Shown piece after piece: positions 6,327-23,796 of a stretch of DNA of 64,000 nt. Both the position numbers and the translations under genes were made by a program. How positions within the stretch are numbered: the first letter of the stretch is position 1; each line of letters begins with the position of its first letter. Where the stretch lies: NCBI RefSeq assembly GCF_000092925.1, contig NC_014217.1, positions 4,588,001-4,652,000 on the forward strand, in the 5' to 3' direction. Source of the stretch: Ancylobacter novellus DSM 506 (GTDB taxonomy: Bacteria > Pseudomonadota > Alphaproteobacteria > Rhizobiales > Xanthobacteraceae). The notes beneath the pieces were generated by a model. It worked only from the letters and a program-made list of their open reading frames with translations. It searched no databases and was not told the origin of the DNA.

Positions 6327-6352
6327 TGGCGGAGGGAGCGGGATTCGAACCC
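6327..6352. repeat. Distal attachment-site repeat of the element (26 bp)
   Basis: Identical over 26 bp to 23899-23924, the 3' end of the tRNA-Ser(GGA) gene including the CCA and T-arm positions. The match stops at 6353 (T instead of G), and the following bases do not continue a tRNA. This is the duplicated core left by integration. Confidence 0.9.
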
Positions 6353-6403
6353 TACAAAAAATTCTTTAGAATCAACGATGTTAGGCCCAAATGTGCCGCA
6401 TAA

Positions 6404-6424
6404 TGTTGGACGCTATGTTGGACA
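6404..6424. repeat. Putative integrase arm-type site, left end
   Basis: Two direct units TGTTGGACGCTA and TGTTGGACA, 12 bp apart, 51 bp inside the left core. The same pair, with one base changed and in the same orientation, occurs at 23809-23829 near the right end. Such paired short repeats on both sides of the core are the layout of arm-binding sites of lambda-type integrases. Role inferred. Confidence 0.6.
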
Positions 6425-6561
6425 TGGAGGGCTGCAGAAATATTTTACCCCGCCGCCGGTTAGGGCGACGGGGCTGCATCACCTGCTGGGGACCCCGTCC
6501 AACTGGCGATGATCGCCGCCCGCGGAGGAGAACAATACGCGGCGGCAATGGGGTTGGGTGC

Positions 6562-7163
6562 TCACGCGGTGGCGGCCAGCCGCTCCACGTCCTGGTAGAT
6601 CCGCGTCCAAACGTGCACCGGCCAATCGGCTTCGGCGATGTCCACGGCGCTGGCGTCTTCGATGTCGTGAAGCTCGAGCAACGCGATTTTGATCTTGATC
6701 GCCAACTCCGGCAGCGAAGCCGCAGGGCGATCGATGAGACGCCCGAGCACTGCGTTCATGCGCTCCTCGGCGGCGCTGTCGTCCCGGCCGGCAGCCGTCG
6801 CGCCGGTGGCGTCGGAGATTGCCTCCACAATGCTCCACTGCCGCAACCCGGTGGGATGCCGGTGGTGCTTGCGAGCACCTTAATGACGGCCTCGGCGGCA
6901 TTAAGGGCCACAGTGTGCATCGGTTCCCAGCGCGCCTTTAGGGGCAGCCATTCGGCGCGGCGACGCCAGTAGTCGGCCGCGAGGGCGGGAACGGTTCTGT
7001 CGTCCTCCTCGGCGGTGAGCTCCATCGGCGGCTGGTCGACCGGCTGGTCGTAGCTCGGCTGATGCGGCGTGCGGATGGTGCCGGTCTGGCCGGCGCGCAG
7101 GTCGTGCATGTCGCACGCGGCCTCGATGGCGCGGTCGATGTCGGTGCGGGTCTGAAGGTTCAT
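6562..7163 (-). pseudogene. Hypothetical element gene split by a frameshift
   Basis: The ATG at 7163 lies 2 nt after the stop of the 69-residue gene upstream. It opens a frame (MNLQTRTDIDRAIEAACDMH) that reads well as far as AAEAVIKVLASTTG, then runs into low-complexity sequence and stops at 6756. From about 6850 a second frame, offset by one base, continues with protein-like sequence (RQWSIVEAISDATGA to VERLAATA) to a stop at 6562. The simplest reading is one gene of about 200 codons broken by a one-base indel between about 6850 and 6880. A sequencing error or programmed frameshift is also possible. No family recognised. Confidence 0.5.
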
Positions 7164-7165
7164 GA

Positions 7166-7375
7166 TCAGCCCTCCACCCAGTCGGCGCGAACCGCTTCCA
7201 GCGACAGGAACTGCTCGAACATCTTGCTGGCGTTCGCGAGGATGCGCTGGGCGGAATTCTCGTCCGCCGGGAGCATGCCGCAAATCTTGGCAGCGATCTG
7301 GCGCTCGCAAATGATGCGGACCTCGGTCTCGGTGGCGCGATCGACAAGGCGGGGGGTGGGAGTGTGGATGGTCAT
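7166..7375 (-). CDS. Hypothetical protein (69 aa)
   Basis: A small acidic, helix-rich protein (MTIHTPTPRLVDRATETEVR, then KICGMLPADENSAQRI) that I do not recognise. It is the first gene of a leftward pair, its stop 2 nt before the start of the frameshifted gene. A 79-nt nested inverted repeat lies just upstream of its ATG, so its mRNA leader is strongly structured. Confidence 0.55.
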   Translation of the reverse strand: MTIHTPTPRLVDRATETEVRIICERQIAAKICGMLPADENSAQRILANASKMFEQFLSLEAVRADWVEG

Positions 7376-7382
7376 GGTGTTG

Positions 7383-7461
7383 GTCTCTTCGGTATCGGCT
7401 GTTCAAGGCCGCGCCTGGTGACAGACCAGGCAGCCGGGAGTTGAACACCTGCCGAAGAGAC
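7383..7461 (-). promoter_or_regulatory. 79-nt nested perfect inverted repeat (structured leader or operator)
   Basis: Three perfect inverted repeats sit inside one another. The outer stem is GTCTCTTCGG 7383-7392 with CCGAAGAGAC 7452-7461. The middle stem is TGTTCAA 7400-7406 with TTGAACA 7441-7447. The inner stem is GCCTGGT 7413-7419 with ACCAGGC 7425-7431, around loop GACAG. On the minus strand it ends 7 nt before the ATG of the 69-aa gene and would fold in its 5' UTR. No known riboswitch class is recognised. It could also be a DNA structure such as a replication or recombination site. Confidence 0.6.
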
Positions 7462-7844
7462 AGGCCGTTGCGCTTTTAAGGTATTACCCTCTGGACATGG
7501 CGCACCGCTCCCGGCCATACTGATGGCCAGGTTCGGTCGCCCGCCAAGGCGCCGCATGCGTCCAGCCTCCGCCAAGAGGCTTCGCGCTTCAGCTACTCAC
7601 CGTCGCCAAACGGGAGTGGCCATATCTTCGGTCCGGGTGTTCAAGCCCACGGACCACGTTGCTACCGATTCTTGATTTGCGCAAGCGCCGCCCTACGTCG
7701 GGCGGCTGTTTTGCGTTGTGCGCTGCGAAGCAACGGGAGCGCCTGTGCACAAGCCGCATTTTTGCGAACCTACGACCACTCCCTTCTGTTGCTCGGAAGC
7801 GGAACGTCGTTAACTTCAAGAGCCTCTCGATTAAGGAGGCTATT
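7462..7844. other. Non-coding stretch before the left tyrosine recombinase
   Basis: No gene is supported between the structured leader and the recombinase start. It contains a terminator-like hairpin at 7687-7711 and the recombinase ribosome binding site AAGGAGG at 7833-7839. Frame-compatible codons continue upstream of 7845 but do not resemble recombinase sequence. Confidence 0.4.
7687..7714 (+). terminator. Possible intrinsic terminator or attenuator
   Basis: Stem GCCGCCC (7687-7693) with GGGCGGC (7700-7706), a 6-nt loop, then TGTTTT on the plus strand. No plus-strand gene ends just before it, so it could attenuate transcription into the recombinase gene at 7845. Confidence 0.35.
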
Positions 7845-8933
7845 GTGGCGCTCAAATTGGTTCGCCGTGCGGGCACCCCGAACTGGTACGTTCGCGGCAC
7901 TCTCCTGGGCACCACGATTATCCGCTCGACCAAAGAGACGGAGCTGCAGCACGCAAAGAAGCGGCTTCGGGAAATCGAGGCCGACATCCGCAGCCTCCGG
8001 GACCGAACCTTCAAGGAGATCGCTGACGCATACCTCGCAGACGGCGCCTCGGCCCGCTTCATCGAACCAATCGTGAGTAAGCTCGGCCGCGTTCGGGCGC
8101 GAACGCTCCGCCAAGACGTTGTCGACGAGGCCGCTAAGAAGATCTATCCCAAGGTCACAAGCGAAACGTTGAACCGGCAGTTCTACACGCCCTTCATCGC
8201 AATTTGGAATTTCGCGGCGCGTAAGGAGTGGGTGCATTCCCGAACCTGGGCTCGTCCACGGAAGCCCAGGCAAGGCACGCTAGTTCGGCGGGTTGTCAGC
8301 CGCGCTGGCACCGTGCCCACGTCCTACGACCGCGCTGTAGAGTTCGTCGCGGCCATGTCGCCTGGACCGGCGATGCTCATGACGGCGCTGTTCTACACCG
8401 GCATGCGGCCGATCGAGATGCTCGGGTTAGATGCCGCGAGCGTCAACGTCGAGGAGCGATGGATAACCCTACTCAGTACCAAGACGGGAGAGCCGCGGGG
8501 CGTGCCGATGCATGAGTTCCTCGTACCCCTGTTCCAGGCGCTCGCCGGTCGAGCCGGTGCCGTATTCCGTAGTCCCAAAGGGCAGCCGTACACGCCGAAG
8601 GATGAGGGCGGGGGTCAGCTGAAATCGTCCGTTGGTGGCGCCCGTCGCCGCTCCGGCATCAATGGCATCAGCCCCTACACGGGCCGACATACCGTCTCGA
8701 CCCAGCTAGTGGTGAACGGCGTGCACCCGCACATCAAGGATCAGATCCTCGGCCACGCGGTGGATGACATGAGCCGGCACTACACCCATGTGCCGCAGCA
8801 GCCGCTCATCGACGCGATCAACACCCTGCCGGTGCCGCAGGCGTGGCGAGACCTGCCGTGGTGGGAAGACCCGCTGAAGTGGCAGCGCAGAATGGTGGAG
8901 GGTACGGGCAGGCGGACGGACTTAGGGTATTAG
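7845..8933 (+). CDS. Tyrosine recombinase/integrase (left copy)
   Basis: A 362-residue phage-type integrase. The N-terminal part is an AP2-like arm-binding region (RAGTPNWYVRGTLLGTT) followed by a core-binding domain. The catalytic domain has the first Arg in FYTGMRPIEMLGL, a Lys in STKTGEPRGVPM, the second Arg in SPYTGRHTVST (the usual HxxR box with Tyr for His), LGHAVDDMSRHYTHV with the conserved His and the nucleophilic Tyr. GTG at 7845 is chosen because AAGGAGG lies 5 nt upstream. It is the second tyrosine recombinase in the element, at the end opposite the tRNA. Confidence 0.85.
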   Translation: MALKLVRRAGTPNWYVRGTLLGTTIIRSTKETELQHAKKRLREIEADIRSLRDRTFKEIADAYLADGASARFIEPIVSKLGRVRARTLRQDVVDEAAKKIYPKVTSETLNRQFYTPFIAIWNFAARKEWVHSRTWARPRKPRQGTLVRRVVSRAGTVPTSYDRAVEFVAAMSPGPAMLMTALFYTGMRPIEMLGLDAASVNVEERWITLLSTKTGEPRGVPMHEFLVPLFQALAGRAGAVFRSPKGQPYTPKDEGGGQLKSSVGGARRRSGINGISPYTGRHTVSTQLVVNGVHPHIKDQILGHAVDDMSRHYTHVPQQPLIDAINTLPVPQAWRDLPWWEDPLKWQRRMVEGTGRRTDLGY

Positions 8934-8985
8934 GCGCCCTGCTAGTCGCTTGACCATCCCGCTCCATCGCTCTTATCCCCACGGA

Positions 8986-9120
8986 ATGGCACTAGGCATC
9001 GCTATCGGCATCGGGTTTGGAGCCGTGCTCGGCGTCGCGTTCGATAACTCGGCCGCGTGCATTGGCGCGGGCGCGGCGATCGGCGCTGCTGTGGGGTACG
9101 CGGCGCAAAAGCGGCGGTGA
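8986..9120 (+). CDS. Small glycine-zipper membrane protein (44 aa)
   Basis: A 44-residue peptide MALGIAIGIGFGAVLGVAFD followed by GAGAAIGAAVGYAAQKRR. The GxxxG/AxxxG spacing and positively charged tail are typical of small glycine-zipper inner-membrane proteins common in phage and bacterial genomes. It begins 52 nt after the recombinase stop and may be cotranscribed. Purine-rich ACGGA precedes the ATG. Function unknown. Confidence 0.5.
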   Translation: MALGIAIGIGFGAVLGVAFDNSAACIGAGAAIGAAVGYAAQKRR

Positions 9121-9425
9121 GGGGAAATAACGGCTTGCAAAGCCATAGAGCAGATCGGCCACCCCTTACCGTTACTACTTCTTCATTCTACGGCAACCTT
9201 ACGGCATGCTCGGCATCTGTAGTTTCCGGCCGCTTGCCGCAAGGCGGGCCGCGGACAGTCATGTCTGTGGAGATGGAGCGTATCGTGGGGAGACGGTGCG
9301 CTCCATCTTGCCGTAGCGCCAGGGGCTGGCGTGGCGGCTCCTGGCGCTCTAGCGCCAATGAGCGAGTTCTTGTCGACTACCATAGTGCTGTCCGGGTATT
9401 CTCAGCGAATCGCTGGGAGCGCCCG
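9121..9425. other. 305-bp structured non-coding region upstream of tcmP
   Basis: No gene is supported. Three consecutive dyads occur. The first is CGGCC 9227-9231 with GGCCG 9247-9251, enclosing CTTG/CAAG. The second is GATGGAGCG 9272-9280 with CGCTCCATC 9299-9307, a perfect 9-bp stem. The third is AGCGCCAGG 9315-9323 with CCTGGCGCT 9340-9348, another perfect 9-bp stem. Together they could form a structured 5' leader of the TcmP mRNA or a small RNA. Confidence 0.45.
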
Positions 9426-10343
9426 ATGACTGAAGTAGATGACAGTCACGAATTTGGGTCCGAGGACGTCACAGAGACGAAGCTACGCCTCCTCGAGGAG
9501 TACATCCAGGCTTTTGCAACTGCGCTACGCGGAAAGTTTCCTCGCATCTGGTATATCGACGCCTTCGCAGGGACTGGCTCCCGAACGATAAGGATCGGTG
9601 CGACAGATGCCAATATGTTTGGTGAGGCGAAGGAGGAAACCGTCGACCGGAAGCGCGGATCGGCACGCATAGCTCTTGATGTTCAGCCCCATTTTGATCG
9701 ACTCATCTTTATGGAGCAAAGAAAGAAGCATTACGATGCGCTCATGGAACTAAGGCAGCAGCATCCTCAACGGGATATATTTGTTCTACAGGGAGACGCC
9801 AACGATATTATTCAAAGCCAGCTACACCTCGCAGACTGGCGTGGCACCAGGGCAGTCATATTTCTGGATCCCTACGGGATGAATGTCGATTGGAAGACGC
9901 TTGAATGCATAGCGGCCACGGGTGCTATCGACGTATGGTATCTCTTCTCCCTTTCAGGGCTATTTCGACAAGCCGCTCGCAACATTTCCGGAATCGATCA
10001 GCACAAGAGGGCTGCAATTACCCGGATGCTGGGCACGAGTGAATGGGAGTCAGAGCTATATCAGCGGGAGGAGGTGTTCACCGATCTCTTTGGAACAGAG
10101 AGCAAGCACGAACGCCAGAGGATCGCGGATGTTGCCGGTTTGGAGCGATATGTTACCCGGCGGCTGAGAACCATATTTCCAATGGTTCTAGAGCCCTTCG
10201 CCCTTCCACCAGTTCGACGACCTCAGATATTTTCGTTGTATTTTGCTCTATCTAACAAAGACCCGAAGGCTATCGGCCTTGCAAAGAAAATAGCCGGTCA
10301 TATCCTCAATTCTGGCAAGCCATCCCATTCTCGATCGCGATAG
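9426..10343 (+). CDS. tcmP: Three-Cys-motif partner protein TcmP
   Basis: A 305-residue protein recognised as the three-Cys-motif partner family, which is found beside DUF5131 (phage Gp37/Gp68) proteins. It has methyltransferase-like motifs: IDAFAGTGSRT (residues 44-54), resembling a nucleotide-binding FxGxG loop, and FLDPYGM (146-152), resembling a DPPY-type motif. The N-terminal segment (TETKLRLLEEYIQAFATALR) is family-typical. The ATG at 9426 opens MTEVDDSHEFGSEDV. The gene is convergent with the DUF5131 gene and their 3' ends overlap by 46 bp. Biochemical function is unknown; a modification role on nucleic acid is inference. Confidence 0.85.
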   Translation: MTEVDDSHEFGSEDVTETKLRLLEEYIQAFATALRGKFPRIWYIDAFAGTGSRTIRIGATDANMFGEAKEETVDRKRGSARIALDVQPHFDRLIFMEQRKKHYDALMELRQQHPQRDIFVLQGDANDIIQSQLHLADWRGTRAVIFLDPYGMNVDWKTLECIAATGAIDVWYLFSLSGLFRQAARNISGIDQHKRAAITRMLGTSEWESELYQREEVFTDLFGTESKHERQRIADVAGLERYVTRRLRTIFPMVLEPFALPPVRRPQIFSLYFALSNKDPKAIGLAKKIAGHILNSGKPSHSRSR

Positions 10344-11050
10344 ACCCGGCCCGTCGCTTTCTTGTTCCTTCCACCCCATTGCTTGAAGAAGAACGCCGCA
10401 TCAGCGTCGGTGCATTGGTCGAAAATCTCGTCGACCCATTTGGGGTCCATGGGGCGAGCGTTGGGGCCTGACTCGCCACCGACAATCGCCCAATGAATGT
10501 CACGTAAGCTTCCGCCCGCCACCGAACCGATTAGCGGCTCGTACGACACGAACCGAACAGCAGCGGGAACCTCACGCAGTTCATCTAAGCGATGAAGAAC
10601 GCGGTCATCCTCTACGCTTGTCCCAAGCCAGACGTTGGGCAGGACATCGAACCCGTCGGTGCGGAGAATCTCCGCCATCCGGTCGGGTCGCTTGGTCAGG
10701 ATCTGGTAAGTGTGCCGCGGTGTATCGGCCATCACCGACCACACCTCCTTGACGAAGGCGGCAGGTACATCGGGATGAAAAAGGTCGGACATGGAGTTCA
10801 CGAAGACCCGCCGCGGCTTGCTCCAATTAAGGGGAGCCTTTAGCGCGCCGTAGTCCAGATTGAGCTTACCGGTCCATTTTGCGCGGCCGCCGCTCTTTCG
10901 GGTCAGGCCTTTATATTTTTCGACCCCCATAGCCTCCAACCGGGCCGCCATGCGCATCGCGTAACAGTTGGTGCAACCGGCAGACATGATGCTGCAGCCG
11001 GCCACCGGGTTCCACGTGACGTCCGTCCACTCGATTGAAGTTTCAGCCAT
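10298..11050 (-). CDS. DUF5131 (phage Gp37/Gp68) family protein with three-Cys motif
   Basis: A 250-residue protein starting MAETSIEWTDVTWNPVAGC, the hallmark of the Gp37/Gp68 family. Cys19, Cys26 and Cys29 (C-x6-C-x2-C) form the three-Cys motif and could ligate an iron-sulphur cluster, as in radical-SAM-like proteins. Later conserved segments are NSMSDLFHPDVP, QILTKRPDRM, WLGTSVED, VGGESGPNARP and FFFKQWGG. The ATG at 11050 follows GGAGG by 5 nt. Its standard partner TcmP is encoded on the opposite strand with overlapping 3' ends, not as a same-strand operon. Function unknown. A small dyad (CAGCA-aca-TGCTG, 11067-11079) lies in its upstream region. Confidence 0.85.
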   Translation of the reverse strand: MAETSIEWTDVTWNPVAGCSIMSAGCTNCYAMRMAARLEAMGVEKYKGLTRKSGGRAKWTGKLNLDYGALKAPLNWSKPRRVFVNSMSDLFHPDVPAAFVKEVWSVMADTPRHTYQILTKRPDRMAEILRTDGFDVLPNVWLGTSVEDDRVLHRLDELREVPAAVRFVSYEPLIGSVAGGSLRDIHWAIVGGESGPNARPMDPKWVDEIFDQCTDADAAFFFKQWGGRNKKATGRVYRDREWDGLPELRI

Positions 11051-11173
11051 GGCGGCCTCCATTACCCAGCAACATGCTGAGTCAATGTGGTTAAGAAGTG
11101 AGCCTATTTGGAAAAGAACAAAAAGGGAACTATAACCGCCGAGCCCCACGCCATCGAGCCCGGCGGCCGGCCG

Positions 11174-12280
11174 TCAAAACCAACGACCGATGGCAACATA
11201 CCCGCAGGCGGCCACGGCGGTGTTCTGCGAGGCGGCGAGGTAGAATGAGAAACCGCTCGCCGTGGTAGCCGGCGTATTGTTGACTGTGGTAGCCGCACCC
11301 ACTGCATCGCCGCCGCTACCCGTGCCACCCGTCGAAAAGGTGACGACGGCGGGAGCTGCGGCAAATGCCGCCGGGAACGTCGGCGTGATTGCAGCCGAAC
11401 GAAACCCGCCGATAACAGCAGAGCTGGCAATGTTGACCTGGCGCGTCGTGAACGTAGCCCAGCAAATCATGGTGCCGTCGGCGAACTTGATGAAGTCGCC
11501 CAAGCCATTCGAACCCTTCTCAAACAGCGCCCCGGTCGGCGTGCCGCCGCTCTGACTCACCGTGCCGGCTATGGCCTGCATGACGGCGTCGGCGCCGCCT
11601 GTGCCGGTGAATCTGGCGAACGAGCCCGCGGCTGCGGTCAGCGTGCCCATGGCCCGGAATGCCGTTGCACCAAGCGTGGTCCGCGCCTCGGCGGCGGTCG
11701 TATCATCCATTAGCGTCTGGATGAACGACGTGGGCGCGACATAGGCCAGCCACGACGTGCCGTTCCAGACGTAAAGATCGCCCGTCGCCACGCTGACCAC
11801 CGACATGCCATGGTCAGCCGCCGTGAACAGCCACGCCGACCCGGTCCACTGCGCTAGGTTGTTGGCGTGGCCGGCCCACGCACCAGTCGGGGAGGTTCCC
11901 ACGACGTACATGTCATTGGTGACGGGCGAGCCGGGCGGCGTGTTGGCGCCGAGGCTCTGCACTTCGTAGTTCGGACGGGCCGCCTCCAGAATGCCGGCAC
12001 GCGCCACAAGGGCGCGCACCTGCTCGGCAAGGTAGCCGGAGGTGAAGCGGGAGGGGGCGTCGAAGCGCACCAGATATGCAGCGCCGCTCTGCGTGGTGCC
12101 GGACCAAGCCGTCGCAAGCTCGAAGTGCGTCGTATCCGTCACCGAGGCGATCGTTACCCGCTGACCGGCGAGCTCGAGCGTGTCGCCGGCGAGCAGGTCG
12201 CTCCACAGCACCGAGGAGCCGGTAACAGTCGTGGCGCCATTGGCCACCGACACGGTGCCGGTGTTGTAGTAGTTTGGCAT
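11174..12280 (-). CDS. Phage tail-fibre-like protein
   Basis: A 368-residue protein. The N-terminal part (NTGTVSVANGATTVTGSSV) is a beta-rich baseplate/fibre attachment module seen in tail fibres. The middle (SLGANTPPGSPVTND, LYVWNGTSWLAYV) is a DUF2793-like repeat region. The C-terminal domain (GLGDFIKFADGTMICWATF to GYVAIGRWF) matches the gp53-like receptor-binding tip type. It is the most downstream structural gene, 367 bp after the tape-measure stop, with a small plus-strand gene between. AAGGA precedes the ATG. Confidence 0.75.
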   Translation of the reverse strand: MPNYYNTGTVSVANGATTVTGSSVLWSDLLAGDTLELAGQRVTIASVTDTTHFELATAWSGTTQSGAAYLVRFDAPSRFTSGYLAEQVRALVARAGILEAARPNYEVQSLGANTPPGSPVTNDMYVVGTSPTGAWAGHANNLAQWTGSAWLFTAADHGMSVVSVATGDLYVWNGTSWLAYVAPTSFIQTLMDDTTAAEARTTLGATAFRAMGTLTAAAGSFARFTGTGGADAVMQAIAGTVSQSGGTPTGALFEKGSNGLGDFIKFADGTMICWATFTTRQVNIASSAVIGGFRSAAITPTFPAAFAAAPAVVTFSTGGTGSGGDAVGAATTVNNTPATTASGFSFYLAASQNTAVAACGYVAIGRWF

Positions 12281-12405
12281 GGGGAATCCTTGGCGCCGCT
12301 GGGGGCGCGGTTCGAAATATGGATGAGGGGGAAGGAGAGCGGCTCTTGCGCGCCGCTTGGGGGCACCTACATGCGGCGCCGGTCGTGCATTTTCGGGAGG
12401 CTCAA

Positions 12406-12651
12406 ATGCCCTTTCGGAACTTGGAACTGGAGCCAGCGACGATAGCCAAATTGGATCGATGCCTGGCGAGGGCGCAGGACGTGGCGGTCAGCTATGGAAT
12501 CGAGGCCAATGGTGCCGGGCTTCGCACCGTGCTGGCCCTCGCGCTCATCGAGGCAGCCAACGCTGGCGAAGAGGACGAAGACCAGTTGGTGGAATTCGCG
12601 CTCCGGGCGTTGCCCGCTTATCGGCGTTTAGGACAGGCGTCGCCGCCCTAG
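12406..12651 (+). CDS. Hypothetical protein (81 aa)
   Basis: A helical, acidic protein beginning MPFRNLELEPATIAKLDRCL, with ribosome binding site CGGGAGG 5 nt before the ATG. No family recognised. It lies on the opposite strand to the surrounding tail genes, starting 125 bp from the divergent tail-fibre gene and overlapping the tape-measure stop by 4 bp. This is the position of a small independently expressed phage cargo (moron-like) gene. That role is inference. Confidence 0.55.
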   Translation: MPFRNLELEPATIAKLDRCLARAQDVAVSYGIEANGAGLRTVLALALIEAANAGEEDEDQLVEFALRALPAYRRLGQASPP

Positions 12652-14513
12652 ACGCGCACGTTCCGCCGCTGTGCATCCTGAACCACGCGAACGGTACGGC
12701 TCGCGAACGAGCGCCGGTCTTCCGCCAGGACCCGCTGAAGCTGCGCCACAGCCTCGGCGGAGGCGCCCGCCTCGACGGTGATATGGGGCGCGTAAGTCAC
12801 CGCCATCGCACCACCCCTCCCGCCGCCCGCCATGGCGTGGTTCGGCACGATGCGGCCCGCCACGTCCGGCACGAACATCTCCGGGCCGCGCTCGCCGACG
12901 CGGTAGATCTGGCCCGCATTGACCGGCCCGCCGACGGCTTTGGAGCCGCCGAAGGAGCCCAGGAGCGAGCCGAGCAGCCCACCAGGACCGCTGCCGACGG
13001 GGTTGAACAGGCCGTCCAGCGCCATGCCGAGCAGCTTGTCGCCGACCTTGGCCAGCGCGTTCGACAGCGCCTCGGCCGCCGACACGCCGTTCTGCATGTC
13101 GCTGATGAACCCGCCCAGCACGTCCTTGCCGAGGTCGTTCAAGTCGGCCAGTTGGCCGACGAGATATTCCTGCTGCTCACGCAGCCGCTCGGCCTCAACC
13201 GTGGCTTCGGCATAGGCCGTCGCCAGCGCGTCTATGTTCTGCCGGACCTCCGGCGTGATCTCGATCTTGGCGCGCTCCGCGGCGTTGAGCAGGTCCGCTT
13301 CGGCGCGGGCCTTCTCCATCGCGAAGCCGTAGTCGTTCACCAGCGGATTGAGCGTGGCCTGAACCGACGTCTCGTACTGAAGCGCCTGCGTGCGCTCCTG
13401 GATCATCCGCGTCATGCGCTCGTAGGCGTCGAGCGTTTCCTTGCTGGTGCCACCAGAGGGCTGGAACGCCGGCTTTGGCTTTACGGTCACCTTTGTGGGC
13501 GCGCCGCCGGACATGCCGAAGGCACTGTCCCACTCGGCAGACTGAGCGTTGGTGAGCGATGTGCCCTGGCCAAGGCGGAGGCGCATGCGGGCGACGGAGT
13601 CAGCGTCCAGCGCCAAAGCATCACCAATTCGACCGTTGCCAATAAGGCCAGTGTAAACGCTGATTTCCTTTACGATGTCGCGAAGACTGGACAGTCCGTC
13701 AATTGCAAGGCCGAGGGCGCCGACGTCAGCAATTGTTGTATATAGCTCAGTCACCGCATTATTCAGGCGGTTCATCTCGGTCACAAGCGTGCTGCGTCGA
13801 TCGGAGCCGTACAGTTCATTCAGCCTGTCCGCGAGACGCGGCAAAAGATCATCAGCAGCGAGACCGCCTTTCTCGAGCAACTTGCTCAGTTGGGCCGTCG
13901 TCAGCCCGAGCGACTCGGCCGCGATACGGAATGCGCCGGGAAGGCGCTCACCCAACTGACCGCGGAGTTCTTCCGCCTGAACCGTGCCCTTCGAGACCAT
14001 CTGCTGCACGGCCTGCAGCGCGCCCTCGGTGTCGGCCGCACTCTTGCCGAGCGCCGACATGGCCCCAGCGACGGCGGTGAAGATGCTGCGGGTTTCCTCG
14101 CCGGCGAGATTGGTGCCCTGGGTTGCCGCCAGCAGCGACGAATATGCCTGACCGGCCGAGAGCAGTTCCAACCCAAGACGATCCGCCGTCTCGCCAATGA
14201 ACTTCATTTCCCTATCGGCTGCCGCGGAGCCGCCGGTGATGGCCTTAAGGCTGGCCCTAAGGCTGTCGACGCTCTGAACCGTTTTCAGGAAGTCCTGCGC
14301 GGCGAAGCCCACCCCAAGACTGGCAAGCAGGCCGCGGCCAGCACCGGAAACCGACGCTGCAAAGACGTCCATCGACCTCTTCGCGCCGGCGAAGCGCTTC
14401 TCGATGTTCGTCGCGCTGCGGTTTACGTCGCGGTCGAGCCGGTCGAGCGAGCGCTTTATCTGGCGCGTATCGGCCGACAGCGTGAGTACCAGCGCCTCAA
14501 GATCATTTGCCAT
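12648..14513 (-). CDS. Phage tail tape measure protein
   Basis: A 621-residue protein, short for the family. The N-terminal segment (VLTLSADTRQIKRSLDRLDR) is typical of lambda-type tape measure proteins. The tape-measure domain follows, with QAYSSLLAATQGTNLAGEET, MVSKGTVQAEELRGQLGERL and PGAFRIAAESLGLTTAQLSK. Then come long helices, a Gly-rich hydrophobic segment near residue 520 (GGLLGSLLGSFGGSKAVGGP) and a basic C-terminus. Tape measures set siphovirus tail length, so this would specify a short tail. Start ATG 14513 overlaps the preceding 68-aa gene by 11 nt, as is common for the tail-chaperone/tape-measure boundary. Confidence 0.88.
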   Translation of the reverse strand: MANDLEALVLTLSADTRQIKRSLDRLDRDVNRSATNIEKRFAGAKRSMDVFAASVSGAGRGLLASLGVGFAAQDFLKTVQSVDSLRASLKAITGGSAAADREMKFIGETADRLGLELLSAGQAYSSLLAATQGTNLAGEETRSIFTAVAGAMSALGKSAADTEGALQAVQQMVSKGTVQAEELRGQLGERLPGAFRIAAESLGLTTAQLSKLLEKGGLAADDLLPRLADRLNELYGSDRRSTLVTEMNRLNNAVTELYTTIADVGALGLAIDGLSSLRDIVKEISVYTGLIGNGRIGDALALDADSVARMRLRLGQGTSLTNAQSAEWDSAFGMSGGAPTKVTVKPKPAFQPSGGTSKETLDAYERMTRMIQERTQALQYETSVQATLNPLVNDYGFAMEKARAEADLLNAAERAKIEITPEVRQNIDALATAYAEATVEAERLREQQEYLVGQLADLNDLGKDVLGGFISDMQNGVSAAEALSNALAKVGDKLLGMALDGLFNPVGSGPGGLLGSLLGSFGGSKAVGGPVNAGQIYRVGERGPEMFVPDVAGRIVPNHAMAGGGRGGAMAVTYAPHITVEAGASAEAVAQLQRVLAEDRRSFASRTVRVVQDAQRRNVRV

Positions 14514-14709
14514 CCGCCACCTCCGCGGCCTCGGCAACAACCAGCATGGCGACGGGGCAGGCTATCCTGGCGCCAAGCGCGCCAGCCAGCGCTGCGGTGC
14601 CGGCCGCAATCAAGGCGCGGCCAACTTCGACGGCATCGTCACCGGCGAGAAGCCGCTCGCGCACGAGCGCAGGCAACGTCGCGTGGAGCGACGTGAGATT
14701 GTCGGGCAT
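14503..14709 (-). CDS. Small phage protein upstream of tape measure (possible tail assembly chaperone)
   Basis: A 68-residue protein (MPDNLTSLHATLPALVRERL) rich in Ala and Val. GGAGG lies just before the ATG at 14709. Its 3' end overlaps the tape-measure start. Small proteins in this position are often tail assembly chaperones, but no motif proves it, and no slippery sequence with a second overlapping frame was identified. Confidence 0.55.
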   Translation of the reverse strand: MPDNLTSLHATLPALVRERLLAGDDAVEVGRALIAAGTAALAGALGARIACPVAMLVVAEAAEVADGK

Positions 14710-14782
14710 GAGCCCTCCAGTAAAAATGGGGGAACGCCGGCCGTGCAGGAGCGTTGATGCGCACACATCTGGGAGGAAGCCC

Positions 14783-15049
14783 ATGGCCGACATCAGGAAA
14801 ATGAACCAAGGCGCGCCGTCGAGCGCGGATGCCCTGGTGGCTAACGAGACCATCGCGGACAGGGCGCGAGCAGCGGCCGATACGGCCAAGGAAACGCTGG
14901 GCCAGGCCGGCGAGCGCGCCGTCGAGACCTACACGGCCGGCAACGCTGCCGTGGCGAGCCGAGTCGACGTCATTCCCGCGATGGTAATGTCGGCGCTGGC
15001 CGGGGTGCTCGTCGGCTATTGTCTGGGGAGCGACCGGCGCAATTGGTAG
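14783..15049 (+). CDS. Small membrane-anchored protein (88 aa, YqjD/ElaB-like architecture)
   Basis: A polar helical N-terminal two-thirds (IADRARAAADTAKETLGQAG) followed by one C-terminal membrane helix with a glycine pattern (VMSALAGVLVGYCLG) and a basic end. This architecture resembles the ElaB/YqjD/DUF883 tail-anchored ribosome-associated proteins. GGGAGGAAG precedes the ATG. It is on the plus strand among minus-strand structural genes, so it is separately expressed. Function unknown. Confidence 0.55.
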   Translation: MADIRKMNQGAPSSADALVANETIADRARAAADTAKETLGQAGERAVETYTAGNAAVASRVDVIPAMVMSALAGVLVGYCLGSDRRNW

Positions 15050-15056
15050 CGCCCGG

Positions 15057-15617
15057 TCATAGAATCCCCCGCAGTCGCATCGCTGCCTCGGCCTTCCGGC
15101 GGAGACGTTCAGCGGCGCCGTTGGCGTTGCGCTGCTTCACCATCTCGGCGTTGGTGCTTTCGTAAGCGGGCCAGCCGACCAGACTCATCTCGAGGAGATC
15201 GACGTCGAGGATGGTGCGCACCGGAAAGCCAGCACCATCGGTGTCCCAATCTTCCTCGACAACGCGAAAGCCTATTGAGCACCCTTTGATGTCCCGACGC
15301 GAGACGGTGCCTATGGCGGTCTGCCCGTCCGGGGTGGACGGGTCCGCCTCGAGCTCGAAACGCAGCCCCTGGGCATCCTCGCGCAACTGCAATGTGCCTG
15401 CAGACACCCGCCCCAGAATGCGGCCAGGATCGTGGTGGAGGAGGGCCAGCACGTCCGGCGTCTCGCGTAGGCTACGGCTGAAGCAGCCGGGCCGCAGGAA
15501 CTCCCGGAAGGCGCCTGCGATGATGGCCGGGCTATTGAAGCGGGCGGCATGGCCGGTGATGAAGTTGCCGCTGGTCTCAGGCGCCGCTTCGGCGCGGCGC
15601 TCTAGATCATTTGCCAC
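15057..15617 (-). CDS. HK97-family phage prohead protease
   Basis: A 186-residue capsid maturation protease. Conserved parts are GHAARFNSPAIIAGAFREFL near the N-terminus, LALLHHDPGRILGRV with the catalytic His, GCSIGFRV with the catalytic Ser, and LLEMSLVGWPAYESTNAEM. It should cleave scaffold and capsid protein during head assembly. The GTG start at 15617 (VANDLERRAEAAPE) overlaps the 61-aa gene by 11 nt, suggesting coupling. The major capsid gene normally follows directly; here the next gene in that direction is the tape-measure group, so the capsid gene has been lost. Confidence 0.85.
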   Translation of the reverse strand: MANDLERRAEAAPETSGNFITGHAARFNSPAIIAGAFREFLRPGCFSRSLRETPDVLALLHHDPGRILGRVSAGTLQLREDAQGLRFELEADPSTPDGQTAIGTVSRRDIKGCSIGFRVVEEDWDTDGAGFPVRTILDVDLLEMSLVGWPAYESTNAEMVKQRNANGAAERLRRKAEAAMRLRGIL

Positions 15618-15792
15618 CGCGCACCTTCCGCTCCGCAGCCTCAAGGCGGGCGATGCGCTTCGCCATCTCGTCGCTCCGCAGCGACAGCGCGATGGCCATC
15701 GGGTCCTTGTCCGATCCGCTGAAAGCCTTGCCGCGCACGGTGATCTTGCGGACCTTCTTTGCCGGTTTAGCGTCGGCGCGCTCAGTTGCCAT
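15607..15792 (-). CDS. Hypothetical basic phage protein (61 aa)
   Basis: A Lys/Arg-rich protein (MATERADAKPAKKVRKITVR, ending ERKVRGGK). Its 5' end overlaps the upstream coiled-coil gene by 11 nt and its 3' end overlaps the prohead protease start, so it is part of a tightly packed phage operon. No family recognised. Confidence 0.55.
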   Translation of the reverse strand: MATERADAKPAKKVRKITVRGKAFSGSDKDPMAIALSLRSDEMAKRIARLEAAERKVRGGK

Positions 15793-16354
15793 AATAACCC
15801 GCCTCCCGCGCGCTCTTCAGGAACACGCCGATGTGGCCACCGTCGACGGGATTGCCGAGCCACCCAAGGCTCATCGGGTTGAGCGTCGACCAGGCGATGT
15901 CTTCCGCCTCCAGCTGGCCCCTCAGATCGTCATAGGCCTTCCGTTCCGCCGCGAGCGCCTCGAGCGCGCGGCACAGAGCCGCCACACGCCGGGCGTACTC
16001 CGGCCGGACCTCGTCGCACACGACGCGGCTAGCGCTGCTGCGGGCCTCGCGCAGGCGTTGATCGATGACGGTGAGAGCCGCCGTAGCGTCGCGGTCGGTC
16101 CGCTTGAGATCGGCGATCCGCTCATGCACGCCGCTCTGCTCGACCGTCGCCTCGCCGAGGAGCGCCGCAACGCCTGCACGAAGGGCTGGCATGGGAGTTT
16201 CGGTCAGTTCACGTTCGAGCTTGCGAAGCTCCCGCCGGGAAGCGGTCTGCAGATCCTGCATCTCGGCCCGCTTGGCCGCGAGCGCGGCGTAGGCCGGCAC
16301 GCTGGTGAGCGGCGGGACGCGGTAGGCGGAGTCGGTGGTGGTTGCTTTCGCCAT
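15782..16354 (-). CDS. Hypothetical coiled-coil phage protein (190 aa)
   Basis: Starts MAKATTTDSAYRVPPLTSV with GGGAAG before the ATG at 16354. Most of the protein is charged, helical and coiled-coil-like (residues about 25-145). The C-terminus, SLGWLGNPVDGGHIGVFLKS, is more globular. It lies 2 nt after the 177-aa gene and overlaps the 61-aa gene, all one leftward operon ahead of the prohead protease. Position suggests a head-morphogenesis or packaging accessory, but no family is recognised. Confidence 0.55.
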   Translation of the reverse strand: MAKATTTDSAYRVPPLTSVPAYAALAAKRAEMQDLQTASRRELRKLERELTETPMPALRAGVAALLGEATVEQSGVHERIADLKRTDRDATAALTVIDQRLREARSSASRVVCDEVRPEYARRVAALCRALEALAAERKAYDDLRGQLEAEDIAWSTLNPMSLGWLGNPVDGGHIGVFLKSAREAGYYGN

Positions 16355-16356
16355 GG

Positions 16357-16890
16357 TCACTTCCCAAAAAGGTCGCCAATGGCCGCGGCGAACGCCGAGC
16401 CGTTGATAGTGATGGATTTGCGATGATTGCTCGCGCCCCAGTGTCCAGGAAGCGCGTCCGCTTCCCGGAAGCGGTCGAAGGTGCCGTCGGGCCAATGCAA
16501 CGTGATTTCCGGCCAGTTGCCGACAACGTCGATCTGCGGCGCCGCGCCAGGATCACCAGCGACAACACCGGCCGCGAGCGCGTCGAGGTGGACGCCGGCC
16601 GGAGCGTAACGTTCGGCCAGTTCAACCGGCATGCCGCCGACGCTGTGACCGGGCAGCCCGAGGCCGCGATATTGCTCAACCGCTGATGCCACGAGGTGCA
16701 GTGGCGCGTCTGTCGCCAGCGCAAGCACCAGCGAAACGAAGCCGCGCAAGCCGACTTCAGGCGGCAAGCCGGGTGCCCCTGACGGCACAATGCCGGCCTC
16801 CTGCAGTCTACGCGCCACGGTGCGGGCACGACTGGAGGGGAAGCCCAGTCGACGCTCTATGACGTCGATGGCTTCGTTCAAAGTAGACAT
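16357..16890 (-). CDS. Hypothetical phage protein (177 aa)
   Basis: The N-terminal 45 residues (TLNEAIDVIERRLGFPSSRA to RRLQEAGIVP) look like a DNA-binding helical domain. The C-terminus (NWPEITLHWPDGTFDRF, KSITINGSAFAAAIGDLFG) is a separate beta-containing segment. I believe similar proteins occur in prophages of this bacterial group near packaging genes, but I cannot name the family. It is the first gene of the leftward structural operon, just after a strong intrinsic terminator that isolates it from the gene at 17025. Confidence 0.55.
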   Translation of the reverse strand: MSTLNEAIDVIERRLGFPSSRARTVARRLQEAGIVPSGAPGLPPEVGLRGFVSLVLALATDAPLHLVASAVEQYRGLGLPGHSVGGMPVELAERYAPAGVHLDALAAGVVAGDPGAAPQIDVVGNWPEITLHWPDGTFDRFREADALPGHWGASNHRKSITINGSAFAAAIGDLFGK

Positions 16891-16928
16891 CGCAACGAGA
16901 AATCCTTGTGAGTTGCGGATGATGAAGC

Positions 16929-16952
16929 GAAAAAAACCCGGCCGAAGCCGGG
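16929..16952 (-). terminator. Intrinsic terminator with UUCG tetraloop
   Basis: On the minus strand, stem GCCCGGC/GCCGGG with loop TTCG is followed by seven T. It lies 73 nt past the stop of the leftward gene 17025-17840 and ends its transcript before the structural operon. Confidence 0.85.
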
Positions 16953-17024
16953 CTACAGTTGGGGATACAGGAGCTCGCCAAAGCTCCACGCCTACAAAGG
17001 TTACTAGCACGATTTTGGGTGCAC

Positions 17025-17840
17025 CTACGCTGCGGCAGCGTCGTCATATTCGCTGTAGCACTCGACGAGACCTTCGAGGGCGACACGCATAAGCTCCGTG
17101 CCCACTGCGGATGCTCGCTTGTCGCTGTGGCCACGAGCAGTCCCAATTTCTTCGGCGCCCGCACCGTCAGCAATGTCGACGAGCACTTTGAACAAGCCGG
17201 CCGGCATGCCGCCTCGAATGAATGCCAGCGTCCGCCGAGCGAACGCGGCACGAAGCAGTCGATCCTCGGGACTGGCGGCAGCGCGGTCTTCGTGGCAGCG
17301 GCGCATTTGCGCGCCGATAAAAATGTCGGTCGGCTTGCTGGCGTCGCGCGGCCAGGCGGCGCCCGCGTAGCGGCTGGCTAGCTCGCGAGCCACCGTCGGC
17401 GGATGCATAGGGGCAGCAGGACCACGCTCGCCGCGGAGGCGGTCCTCTATCTCGAAGATCCGGCAGCCATCCCGTTCCACCACCTGCCGATGGCCGCCGA
17501 CGGTGCGATACTCCAGCGATCCGGTTAGATGCAGCGCCACCAAGTGCTCCGCCGTAACGCGCTCGCGGACCATGTCGCGCCCATAGCCCCAGCCGGTGTC
17601 TTCGTCCGTACCGGCATCGTCACCGAACGCGGCCCAATATTCCCGCCCGGCCACGGCGTCCAGGTCTTGCCGGAAGCGCAGGAGAGCGTGGAGCGCGGTG
17701 TTGTTCGCTGATGGCGTGCTGAACAGCCTGCTGGCCGCCAGCCGGTCCCGTGCCGGCCACTCGTGCTGGCCGGGTCGGCGGGTGTTGTCGTTGGCGGCGA
17801 GAGCCGCGTCTTGGCGCGCACGTCGTGCGGTAGCGGTCAT
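17025..17840 (-). CDS. Hypothetical phage protein, possible DNA-binding regulator (271 aa)
   Basis: No family is recognised with certainty. The N-terminus is basic and low in structure (MTATARRARQDAALAANDNT), the middle is acidic and aromatic, and the C-terminal 70 residues (FIRGGMPAGLFKVLVDIADG to LVECYSEYDD) look like helix-turn-helix material. The ATG at 17840 has GGAG 8 nt upstream, better than the alternative ATG at 17852. It is followed by a strong terminator and preceded by a 457-bp gap, so it is a single-gene transcript. A regulatory role is inference. Confidence 0.5.
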   Translation of the reverse strand: MTATARRARQDAALAANDNTRRPGQHEWPARDRLAASRLFSTPSANNTALHALLRFRQDLDAVAGREYWAAFGDDAGTDEDTGWGYGRDMVRERVTAEHLVALHLTGSLEYRTVGGHRQVVERDGCRIFEIEDRLRGERGPAAPMHPPTVARELASRYAGAAWPRDASKPTDIFIGAQMRRCHEDRAAASPEDRLLRAAFARRTLAFIRGGMPAGLFKVLVDIADGAGAEEIGTARGHSDKRASAVGTELMRVALEGLVECYSEYDDAAAA

Positions 17841-18297
17841 GGCGAGCTCCAAGTGCCGGCCCGTCTCCGCGGGGGCTTCTGACCTGTAAGTGTTGTTTTC
17901 GCGGGAAAACGCCGGTCGATTTCGTGCGGAACCCCTCCGGTGTGCACAGGAATCGTCTCGCGCGCTTGCGCACGCGTGAGTCGAAATACCTGTATTAGCG
18001 TTCGCGCTGCTGGAGCCGACCGGTAGGCGGAAATCGGGGCGGCAGGGTTCGGCGTACCCCTAGGGGGTGTCCACGGGTTGCCCACCATCAGATCCCCGAC
18101 CGGCGGCCCTCCGTACGAAATGTTTTCCGCAAAATCGGAAATTCAGGTTTTTACCGTCGGCGGCTGTTAAGTGGTTGTTTCTGCTCAGACGGACCGAAAA
18201 ATAAACATGAAAACCTGCGGGATTTAACGCGCGATTGCAGCGACCGGTCGTAGGGAAAACGGCGGGAGAGATTGAGGGTGCCCCCCGCCACGATGAC
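17841..18297. other. 457-bp non-coding region
   Basis: No gene is supported. It contains a 6-bp dyad TTTCCG/CGGAAA (18124-18129, 18136-18141) and AT-richer patches, consistent with promoter material for the leftward gene at 17840 or a regulatory/origin region, but no site is convincing. Confidence 0.35.
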
Positions 18298-18894
18298 CTA
18301 TGAGTTCTTTTTCTTGCGGGTGGCAGCAGCATCATGCGATGCGCCCAACAGGCGCCCGATGCGGGACGCGATGAAGTCGCCGAGCCGCTGCCCAGAAACA
18401 ATATAATCTTCGACGATGAGGATGTTGGAGCGCGACTTATCTACCAACTTCATCGGAACAGATGCAGCTTGGTGTGCGGTTGAGAGCACGACGGAGTGGT
18501 AGGCGCGCCCGGCCAAGCCCGCATCAGTTTCGTGTTTTCTAAGTCCATGTGGTCGTCTTGACCGGCCCATTGCTTGTTCGGTCTGGTGGATGATGCGCTC
18601 GTCGCGAGTAGCCCACCTCCCGTTGTCGAAGCCTCCCCAACGGCGCTGCCCGAATGTTACGCTTGGAACATCAAACCCAAAAATTAGGTCTTCATGGCAC
18701 CCATCGATATTATTCAATATAAAGCCACGAAGCTTAGATTTCGTGTCTGGAATGGCGTTGACCTCTATAAGTAGTTCAGGGCTCACGGCCAATCTAATAT
18801 TATGAGCTTGCATTTCGCTCGCAACGTCTACGCCGTGATCGTACAGCACATTCCAAGCGCAACTATCGATAAAAACATCAATCTGAGCCGCCAT
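18298..18894 (-). CDS. PIN-like domain protein (198 aa), low-GC cargo
   Basis: The N-terminus MAAQIDVFIDSCAWNVLYD gives a strand ending in Asp10, then LAVSPELLIEVNAIPD, resembling the first acidic positions of PIN-type metal-dependent RNases. A later strand ILIVEDYIVSG carries further acids. The order of acids is suggestive but not a full textbook PIN signature. The gene is divergent (162-bp gap) from a trypsin-like protease gene, and both are AT-richer than the surrounding phage genes. The pair is likely recent cargo, possibly anti-phage or toxin-like. Function not established. Confidence 0.55.
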   Translation of the reverse strand: MAAQIDVFIDSCAWNVLYDHGVDVASEMQAHNIRLAVSPELLIEVNAIPDTKSKLRGFILNNIDGCHEDLIFGFDVPSVTFGQRRWGGFDNGRWATRDERIIHQTEQAMGRSRRPHGLRKHETDAGLAGRAYHSVVLSTAHQAASVPMKLVDKSRSNILIVEDYIVSGQRLGDFIASRIGRLLGASHDAAATRKKKNS

Positions 18895-19011
18895 AAATCC
18901 ATAATATGCATTGTGTCGTGCAAAACACCAGATACTGTCGGACCCCGGCCGGTCCTGGTGCGGGGGGCACGGAGTTTGGAGGCCCCCCATGTAACTGCCA
19001 CACCGCTTCGG

Positions 19012-19017
19012 TATAAT
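19012..19017 (+). promoter_or_regulatory. Consensus -10 box upstream of the protease gene
   Basis: A perfect TATAAT lies 39 nt before the GTG start at 19057. No good -35 is visible at the expected spacing, so it may need an activator. It is in the divergent gap between the PIN-like and protease genes. Confidence 0.4.
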
Positions 19018-19056
19018 GCTGACGCCAAACTCGTTGGCAGTTCTGGGAGGCTTGGA

Positions 19057-19863
19057 GTGGAAACGGATGAAGTTGGCCAGTTGCTCGAAGCTCGGCTAGG
19101 ACGCTGTACCGTCGGCTGGGTGAAACTGGAGCAGACGAAAGCTTCGTCGCTTGGTTCCGGGACTTTAATAAAATATAGATCGGTTCTAGGTGTTATAACT
19201 TGCGGTCATGTAGTTGAAGTACTTAAAGAACTCGACGAGTTTGGATTGTGCTTTTTTCCAGTACGGCCCAGCGAATATCAAAGACTTAAGTTCAAGCGAA
19301 ATGTCGTTGAATTTTTTCAGATTGGCGAAGATTACAAAAGCCACCCATACCATGGGCCAGATCTTGGCTTCGTTAAGATTCCTCTGGAATACGAGGAAGA
19401 TATTAAACTGCACTCTGTTGTTTTGAACATGGACATCCAATCGGATGAGTACCAGAGAGTTGGTTATCAGACGCCTTCGACCTCAGTTTTGTGCGGTGTC
19501 GTGGATGAGCGCACCACTCCTGGCCCTCAAAAATCTAACTATGGCGTCACGACCTTTAACGGATTGATTAACATTGGAAATATTACCGATAGATATTCTA
19601 TATATGATTATGATTATTTGAAGTTTCAGCCACTGCCAGGGCCAGACGGTAAGTTGCCATCATCGTTCGCCGGAACCAGCGGAGGTGGGTTTTGGAACAT
19701 TTGCTTCACACAGGCAGGCGATGGCATAAAATTTTCCAAGCGCCTATTTTCCGGTGTCGCATTTGCTGAAATGAAAGACAGTGAATCAGTTACTATATTG
19801 ACCCATGGCCCCATTAGTATCTATGAGAAACTTCTCCCGATGATAAGAGAGCGGTGGCTTTAA
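19057..19863 (+). CDS. Trypsin-like serine protease (268 aa), low-GC cargo
   Basis: All three catalytic positions of the chymotrypsin fold are visible: His51 in GVITCGHVVEVL, Asp102 in GPDLGFVKIP and Ser208 in SSFAGTSGGGFW. GTG at 19057 is chosen because GGGAGG lies 6 nt before it; frame-open sequence further upstream is not protein-like. No signal peptide is visible, so it acts in the cytoplasm. Such proteases occur as effectors in several bacterial conflict systems. Base composition is clearly lower in GC than its neighbours. It is divergent from the PIN-like gene. Confidence 0.75.
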   Translation: METDEVGQLLEARLGRCTVGWVKLEQTKASSLGSGTLIKYRSVLGVITCGHVVEVLKELDEFGLCFFPVRPSEYQRLKFKRNVVEFFQIGEDYKSHPYHGPDLGFVKIPLEYEEDIKLHSVVLNMDIQSDEYQRVGYQTPSTSVLCGVVDERTTPGPQKSNYGVTTFNGLINIGNITDRYSIYDYDYLKFQPLPGPDGKLPSSFAGTSGGGFWNICFTQAGDGIKFSKRLFSGVAFAEMKDSESVTILTHGPISIYEKLLPMIRERWL

Positions 19864-19903
19864 TCCGGTGAGTAATTATTGTCGCCGAATTGCCGTTTCC
19901 GCT

Positions 19904-19962
19904 CCCCCCCCCAAGAGTCCTATGACTCCTAAGACTTGGGAGTCTGAGGGGTCTTAGGGGGG
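19904..19962. terminator. Large hairpin between convergent genes
   Basis: An outer stem CCCCCCAAGA (19907-19916) pairs with TCTTAGGGGGG (19952-19962, one bulge). An inner stem GACTCC (19924-19929) pairs with GGAGTC (19939-19944). It sits between the stops of the protease gene and the leftward replication ATPase gene. It lacks a T-run but is well placed to block convergent transcription. Confidence 0.45.
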
Positions 19963-19973
19963 TGTATAGAGCG

Positions 19974-21524: not shown

Positions 21525-21759
21525 GAGGCGCACGGCTCCCAAGCGCGGCCATAGCGGCCTGCGCGATCTCGAGTGCAAGTTCAGGGTGAAGCGAAGCGGC
21601 GTGCCGGCCGCCACAGTTGGGCGGCCACACGCGGAGCTCGCCGGTGCGGGTTCGTTTCAACGTCAGGCCGAACAAACGAAGGCGGCCTGGCAACTCGACG
21701 TCAAAGCGCGCCAGTGCGTCCCCACCTGGCAGGGCCGGGTGGATACTGAGTACTTTCAA
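21511..21759 (-). CDS. Hypothetical phage protein (82 aa)
   Basis: TTG start (MKVLSIHPALPGGDALARFD) with GGAGG 8 nt upstream. The protein has a beta-rich N-terminal half and the motif GRHAASLHPELALEIAQAA. I believe similar small proteins are frequent in prophages of this bacterial group beside the replication gene, but their function is unknown. It is translationally coupled to the downstream ATPase. Confidence 0.6.
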   Translation of the reverse strand: MKVLSIHPALPGGDALARFDVELPGRLRLFGLTLKRTRTGELRVWPPNCGGRHAASLHPELALEIAQAAMAALGSRAPHDRS

Positions 21760-23776: not shown

Positions 23777-23796
23777 CCCGCCCTCCGACCGTGTCG

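Follow-up and report, generated by a model that had tools for sequence, protein, structure and literature searches.

Replacement of TcmP beside a conserved DUF5131 protein in a gene pair of mobile elements

Introduction

In wyosine synthesis the radical-SAM enzyme TYW1 acts on a base that has first been methylated by the SAM-dependent methyltransferase Trm5. This is a housekeeping tRNA pathway and is not mobile, unlike the TcmP/DUF5131 gene pair considered here. In temperate phages, lambda cI-rexAB and CarolAnn gp43-gp44 are examples of genes that lie behind a repressor on the same strand; the CarolAnn genes are co-expressed with the repressor and are reported to be a proven prophage defence in a Gordonia host (PMC6426606).

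The types closest to the pair itself are PDC-M41 and PDC-M30 of PADLOC, which are represented by profile models only and which both proteins of the locus studied here match. PDC names come from a guilt-by-embedding screen, and PDC-M30, the sister type, was predicted in 32 of the 100 Pseudomonas aeruginosa strains that make up one panel (PMC10855318). A table in one phage paper labels Gp37Gp68 an ‘ssDNA-annealing protein’ (PMC5463345). No biochemistry, phenotype or anti-phage activity of the pair was found in a literature search with preprints and most subscription papers outside its scope, and the same search gave no earlier description of TcmP exchange beneath a constant DUF5131 or of the two folds. 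The association of the two genes is already catalogued; what this analysis adds is the exchange of partners.

Results and Discussion

The Gene Pair and Its Host Element

The window, a 64,000-nucleotide stretch of the Ancylobacter novellus DSM 506 genome, carries both genes as intact, convergent open reading frames (Table 1). A first-pass annotation of this DNA had described two genes on opposite strands with a 46-bp 3' overlap, a C-x6-C-x2-C cluster at Cys19, 26 and 29 of DUF5131, and DAFAGTG and DPYGM motifs in TcmP, all of which the ORF coordinates and the protein sequences confirm. The DUF5131 frame stays open as far as a GTG at 11149, and the family match starts at residue 3 of the 250-residue form. 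TcmP scores 183.1 bits against TIGR04474, above the curated cut-off of 53, and DUF5131 scores 313 bits against PF07505 (gathering cut-off 28.9) over the full length of the profile (1–243 of 243); the A. novellus genome holds one match to each family. In PADLOC, TcmP matches PDC-M41A with 266 bits and DUF5131 matches PDC-M41B with 341 bits, as well as PDC-M30B with 313 bits; the PDC-M41 models PDLC04635 (E 1.7e-79) and PDLC04639 (E 7.2e-103) are thus matched by adjacent genes. The window pair is an intact member of the phage defence candidate family PDC-M41, and its earlier billing as a candidate for an undescribed system has to be withdrawn, since PADLOC already lists it.

Table 1. Positions of the pair, its motifs and its host element in the window
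Feature	Position	Strand	Details
TcmP, variable partner	9426..10343	+	ATG start, 305 aa; class 0
DUF5131 (Gp37/Gp68 family), constant partner	10298..11050	-	ATG start, 250 aa
Overlap of both 3' ends, 46 bp	10298..10343	.	ORF coordinates
DAFAGTG (TcmP residues 45–51), taken as SAM-binding motif I	9558..9578	+	TcmP alignment
DPYGM (TcmP residues 148–152), taken as motif IV	9867..9881	+	Alignment to RlmJ, where DPPYEM
C19-x6-C26-x2-C29 of DUF5131, presumed [4Fe-4S] ligands	10964..10996	-	Invariant Cys, alignment
Block common to Ancylobacter vacuolatus	9316..11106	.	82% nt, DNA comparison
Host element, ~17.6 kb	6327..23924	.	Bounded by 26-bp exact direct repeat
26-bp direct repeat	6327–6352 = 23899–23924		Right copy is 3' end of tRNA-Ser(GGA)
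Second tyrosine integrase	7659–8933		Inside host element
DUF2793 protein	11174–12280		Inside host element
Tape-measure gene	12648–14540		Inside host element
Prohead protease	15057–15863		Inside host element
Primase/helicase-like gene	19974–21614		Inside host element
Tyrosine integrase adjoining tRNA-Ser	22251..23612	-	phrog_1, 98.5 bits

The host element is small for a tailed prophage and may therefore be a satellite or a prophage remnant. A serine recombinase gene (4459–6153) lies just beyond its boundary at 6327. The block shared with A. vacuolatus consists of the pair and two short flanks, ~110 bp ahead of TcmP and ~56 bp ahead of DUF5131, and the 16.9-kb A. vacuolatus locus has a single further match to the window, a 230-bp stretch. 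Since the match is nearly confined to the pair, the two genes seem, as judged from DNA comparison, to move as a unit. Promoter and terminator scans of 2.6 kb round the pair gave one match each, not above shuffled sequence, and a search for RNA families at the gathering threshold found tRNA alone.

Predicted Folds of the Two Proteins

The predicted DUF5131 structure is a radical-SAM-type barrel whose nearest solved fold is that of spore photoproduct lyase (SPL), and Cys19, Cys26 and Cys29 are invariant in all 65 aligned family members. Likeness to SPL was seen in the fold only (12% identity); the spacing in SPL is C-x3-C-x2-C, the canonical CX3CX2C, whereas DUF5131 has the barrel in the model and three clustered cysteines with the spacing C-x6-C-x2-C. 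Some radical SAM members with other cysteine spacings have been accepted (PMC3742179). A fourth invariant cysteine is absent (C213 occurs in 56 of the 65 sequences). On the strength of the model, DUF5131 very probably belongs to the radical-SAM fold class.

Comparison of DUF5131 with an SPL profile built from two sequences only, which makes for a weak test, returned no match (probability 0.8%); the DUF5131 sequence matched no solved structure, and its profile gave one row at chance level (E 0.61). DUF5131 falls short of the model for radical SAM mobile pair protein A (TIGR04471), against which it scores 66.5 bits with a cut-off of 355, and which is over its cut-off in none of 150 genomes of the phylum.

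TcmP is predicted to fold like the SAM-dependent methyltransferases RlmJ, which acts on 23S rRNA (A2030-N6), and Trm1, which acts on tRNA, with 10–15% identity to them. The fold and DAFAGTG, which we take to be motif I, agree with the RlmJ group; Asp45, Gly49 and Asp148 are present in all 58 aligned TcmPs, Gly51 in 54 and Pro149 in 49. The catalytic DPPY motif of RlmJ (DUF519) is replaced by DPYG in the window's TcmP, within what we presume to be motif IV, and mostly by DP(Y/F) in its relatives. TcmP also differs from RlmJ and Trm1 in being fast-changing, mobile and tied to DUF5131. Judged from the structure model, it is very likely to be of the RlmJ/Trm1 fold class; searched as a single sequence against solved structures, it matched two designed proteins only (E 0.13–0.18). 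The earlier guess of an iron-sulphur or radical-type enzyme paired with a transferase is thus backed as to type, by the invariant cysteines and the DUF5131 model for the one and by the methyltransferase fold of the TcmP model for the other. The folds point to assays for an Fe-S cluster, for SAM cleavage and for base methylation.

Linkage and Gene Layout

Homologous pairs, whose collection the first-pass annotation had proposed, were tabulated for linkage, layout and overlap. Among 289 genomes of the class, the window's own included, DUF5131 occurs in 36 and TcmP over the curated cut-off in 17. Of the 18 over-cut-off TcmP loci, 17 are linked, with a DUF5131 no more than 1 kb away in the same contig, which is more than chance would give; in the 18th the match starts at base 138 of the contig. 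Conversely, 22 of 39 DUF5131 loci, including some that are only partial matches or lie close to the end of a contig, have no adjacent TcmP over the cut-off. The habitual partnership claimed for the two families is therefore one-sided, close as seen from TcmP and often lacking as seen from DUF5131, and TcmP is not needed for whatever a lone DUF5131 does. Viral contigs (the best 80 of 94 DUF5131 loci) have TcmP within 600 bp in 45 of 80 rows, 41 of these convergent; among the others, no TcmP was found in 24 that have room for one, and 11 are near a contig end. Phage records contain DUF5131 in 159 cases and the window's TcmP in five (three Gordonia, two Synechococcus), and the latter used as a probe found no locus in viral contigs and three in genome contigs; patterns and single-sequence searches are weak for so fast-changing a protein. 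No partner recurred in more than five of 35 lone DUF5131 neighbourhoods. One prophage contig carries, besides its pair, a second, distant DUF5131 (L068:2425–3174, minus strand; 29% identical) that adjoins a small phage protein.

A table of 63 pairs admits only those in which TcmP exceeds 700 bp and DUF5131 exceeds 600 bp, and includes six added by hand (L138, L139, two of L158, L159 and L160). Loci L031–L054 were left out of this table and of the trees; most repeat L001–L030 from the TcmP side, and they include L041, a TcmP with no DUF5131 in reach, and L048, L049 and L051–L053, lone TcmP-like matches below the curated cut-off. Single linkage at 33% identity over 60% of the shorter sequence divides the 63 TcmPs into class 0 (n = 24, the window's), class 1 (n = 20), class 2 (n = 6, 415–422 aa), class 3 (n = 4) and nine singletons. 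Sampled class 2 and class 3 TcmPs match PDC-M30A with 56–72 bits, and two sampled class 1 TcmPs have faint PADLOC matches of 25 and 33 bits.

The 3' ends overlap in 43 of the 45 convergent pairs of the table, and in 36 of 36 near-full-length ones on viral contigs; L007, whose genes stand 6 bp apart, and the second TcmP of the Sinorhizobium meliloti plasmid pSymA are the two without overlap. The window's 46-bp overlap recurs in L055, L059, L081 and L139. Such regularity is what favours antisense coupling, in which each mRNA would limit the other, as had been suggested for the window. We regard this as very improbable and reject it as the main idea: overlap length varies from 4 to 75 bp and goes with TcmP class, as exchange of TcmP would explain, and 14 of the 17 class-genome pairs are codirectional (DUF5131 then TcmP in 11, TcmP then DUF5131 in three; the remaining three are convergent). 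Overlapping 3' ends are in themselves nothing unusual: of 16 convergent neighbours counted by eye from annotation tables as a small yardstick, 4 overlap (3 of 8 in a 50-kb stretch of E. coli K-12 and 1 of 8 in a 49-kb stretch of a Rhizobium plasmid with an incomplete gene table). A tree of 88 DUF5131s, obtained from 111 rows by removing those at least 95% identical, requires on its well-supported branches that the convergent layout was gained or lost at least five times, although it is a quick tree with many weak forks.

Exchange of TcmP beside a Conserved DUF5131

In every one of 52 pairs compared with the window's, TcmP is less like its counterpart than DUF5131 is (means of 36 and 65% identity, from local alignments of which some are short), and TcmPs of separate classes barely align. 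TcmP classes differ between DUF5131s that are at least 78% identical in 138 comparisons, many of them between near-copies and one being that of the two TcmPs of pSymA. Thus L099 and L102 share 97.6% identity in DUF5131 and 23% in TcmP, and L063 and L073 share 93% in DUF5131 with no real match in TcmP.

TcmP has been replaced while DUF5131 on one side of it and the upstream DNA on the other were conserved. DNA was compared between viral-contig loci with convergent pairs, at a DUF5131 gene identity of at least 85%; TcmP classes differ in 32 of 70 such locus pairs, and TcmP DNA aligns in none of these 32, as against 22 of the 38 same-class pairs. The 800 bp upstream of TcmP nevertheless align (93–99%) in all 25 different-class pairs that have this DNA, as they do in 30 of 31 same-class pairs; the 25 comparisons derive from ten related loci (L063, L065–L068, L073–L076 and L082) and so represent few events. 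Conservation is weaker upstream of DUF5131, where the DNA aligns in 11 of the 32 pairs that differ in class and in 17 of the 38 that share one. Between L065 and L076, 93.2% identity over 1638 bp ends 22–25 bases before the end of DUF5131 (a gene 88% identical in the two), TcmP is unmatched, and 98.0% identity over 1843 bp resumes 39–46 bp upstream of TcmP, in a stretch that contains a CI-like repressor gene. The same pattern of breaks is seen in L067/L073 (98.1% over 1852 bp) and L068/L075 (97.4% over 1934 bp).

Classes 0 and 1 each occur in two DUF5131 clades with ~47% identity between them, so that the classes must be older than the clades or have moved between them. Across the two clades class 1 TcmPs are ~50–60% identical; class 0 TcmPs are ~45–48% identical, which only equals the identity of the DUF5131s (both fall at ~45–50%). 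On the DUF5131 tree, classes 0 and 1 change eight times over 35 rows, and well-supported branches force at least four changes for class 1; this tree has 53 rows, with same-class near-copies and the class 2 row of pSymA removed, and is again quick with many weak forks.

Immunity regions of temperate phages recombine often, which would suit a reading of both genes as passengers, with TcmP turning over at a recombination hot spot beside the repressor and free of selection on specificity. We consider this improbable, because the repressor side is 93–99% identical although TcmP is replaced, the invariant Asp and Gly residues are kept in 58 of 58 sampled TcmPs, and the same classes recur in distant clades. 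TcmP is instead probably the specificity part of the pair. If so, swapping TcmP would alter the phage or nucleotide affected while DUF5131 stays constant, and similar prophages that differ most sharply in TcmP offer a clean genetic test.

A Possible Modification System

The folds, conserved motifs, linkage and TcmP replacement described above are computed; from them we infer a chemistry, an order of steps, a target and a role in conflict. DUF5131 would hold a [4Fe-4S] cluster on Cys19, Cys26 and Cys29 and generate a 5'-deoxyadenosyl radical. TcmP would bind SAM, pick a nucleic-acid target, more likely RNA since its nearest solved relatives methylate RNA, and methylate a base of it, the target varying with TcmP class. 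DUF5131 might then perform a common radical step on or beside the methylated base, and the modified nucleotide might exclude, or protect against, competing elements while the carrier element is resident. The core of this scheme, a constant radical enzyme and an exchangeable specificity part that modify nucleic acid in competition between elements, is our preferred reading at somewhat less than even odds; that the modification takes two steps is more tentative.

A bolder version, which we hold doubtful, is a modular conflict system in which one radical-SAM enzyme serves exchangeable methyltransferases that each choose a target, the two-step product marking or spoiling it. Selection would have maintained the TcmP classes as old alleles across several phage lineages, in keeping with the sharing of classes 0 and 1 by two DUF5131 clades, and they would be swapped as near-exact single-gene cassettes between an unchanging partner and an unchanging upstream region, much as the specificity subunits of restriction systems are swapped. 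If true, no modification system of this sort, in which a radical-SAM enzyme takes one methyltransferase partner or another, would have been known before.

The same two folds could also form a poison and its antidote: TcmP would methylate a vital RNA or DNA of the cell or phage, DUF5131 would reverse the lesion as SPL reverses its thymine lesion, and TcmP freed from the control of DUF5131 would cause abortive infection. The one-sided linkage fits (TcmP beside DUF5131 in 17 of 18 loci, yet 22 of 39 DUF5131 loci without a TcmP over the cut-off), as do the order of genes, with DUF5131 first in 11 of 14 codirectional class-genome pairs, and the lesion-reversing lyase as nearest solved fold. In five loci (L057, the near-copies L069–L071, and L103), moreover, TcmP is broken into two ORFs and the DUF5131 next to it is uninterrupted, and no split DUF5131 occurs among the pair rows (that of L095 is cut by the contig end). 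Near-identical DUF5131s, however, serve different TcmP classes and would need to undo different lesions, convergent genes cannot form one operon, and likeness to SPL was seen in the fold only. We judge this explanation unlikely and keep the constant radical enzyme with an exchangeable specificity part as the framework for what follows.

Genomic Setting

A role of the pair in conflicts between mobile elements is slightly better than an even bet. Of the 51 pairs with at least 1 kb of DNA upstream of TcmP, 22, many of them near-copies, have a CI-like repressor gene (phrog_4) there on the same strand as TcmP, no more than 2.5 kb away, and in only three is it closer than 300 bp; this link was not found in the window. 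In Gordonia phage BaxterFox (L138) the immunity repressor gene gp43 overlaps the TcmP gene gp42 by 4 bases, DUF5131 is convergent to gp42, and an integrase lies beyond. BaxterFox TcmP thus occupies the place of rexAB and CarolAnn gp43-gp44; no homology is claimed, the CarolAnn genes encode other proteins, DUF5131 is convergent and outside the repressor operon, and the link to a repressor is one of position, seen in a minority of pairs. In a Gordonia phage survey, other genes of BaxterFox are named as defence candidates (PMC5559632). The BaxterFox DUF5131 gene (KU963263.1, 32209–32928, plus strand) was missed in GenBank, which places gp39, gp40 and gp41 over it on the other strand.

The pair also occurs on plasmids, some typed conjugative, such as pKLC102 (DUF5131 then TcmP). 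This spread over viral contigs and plasmids would suit self-marking or anti-defence, in which the pair would modify the DNA or transcripts of the element that carries it, or the tRNA of the host, and thereby defeat restriction or RNA-cleaving defences, with different marks from different TcmP classes; class exchange fits selection for changing marks. Lone DUF5131s in phage DNA-metabolism modules point the same way: L140 has RecE/RecT and a DNA methyltransferase, L157 has SSB and a polymerase beta subunit, and the gene table of an Erythrobacter phage has ERF and SSB. The nearest TcmP folds are, on the other hand, RNA methyltransferases, and the position next to the repressor in some of the prophages suggests that the pair serves during lysogeny; self-marking is accordingly rather unlikely in our view, and exclusion of, or protection against, competitors by a modified nucleotide is preferred.

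On pSymA (L158:5962–11623), one DUF5131 is followed by two convergent TcmPs, of class 2 and class 0, and then by an 845-aa ORF adjoining the class 0 TcmP that matches PDC-S28 with 1020 bits and, from its place, is probably the proven defence gene hna. One paper reports that hna (SMa2245) and a TcmP (SMa2243) are both raised in nolR+ cells and that hna by itself is enough for resistance (PMC12445080), so that on this account TcmP is unneeded for it. No steady defence context was found round 16 class-genome pairs, where 108 neighbour ORFs were scanned using heuristic gene calls that exclude ORFs below 90 or above 1100 aa; PtuA, PDC-M01 and PDC-M48B had one match each among the PADLOC families listed (25 of 80), and one ORF matches the BstA-like phrog_6287. 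The pair of the Rhizobium phaseoli plasmid NZ_CP013575.1 (L160, L175) stands beside genes for Eco57I-type and N6 methylases and GIY-YIG genes, and a Shedu nuclease gene lies ~10 kb from it.
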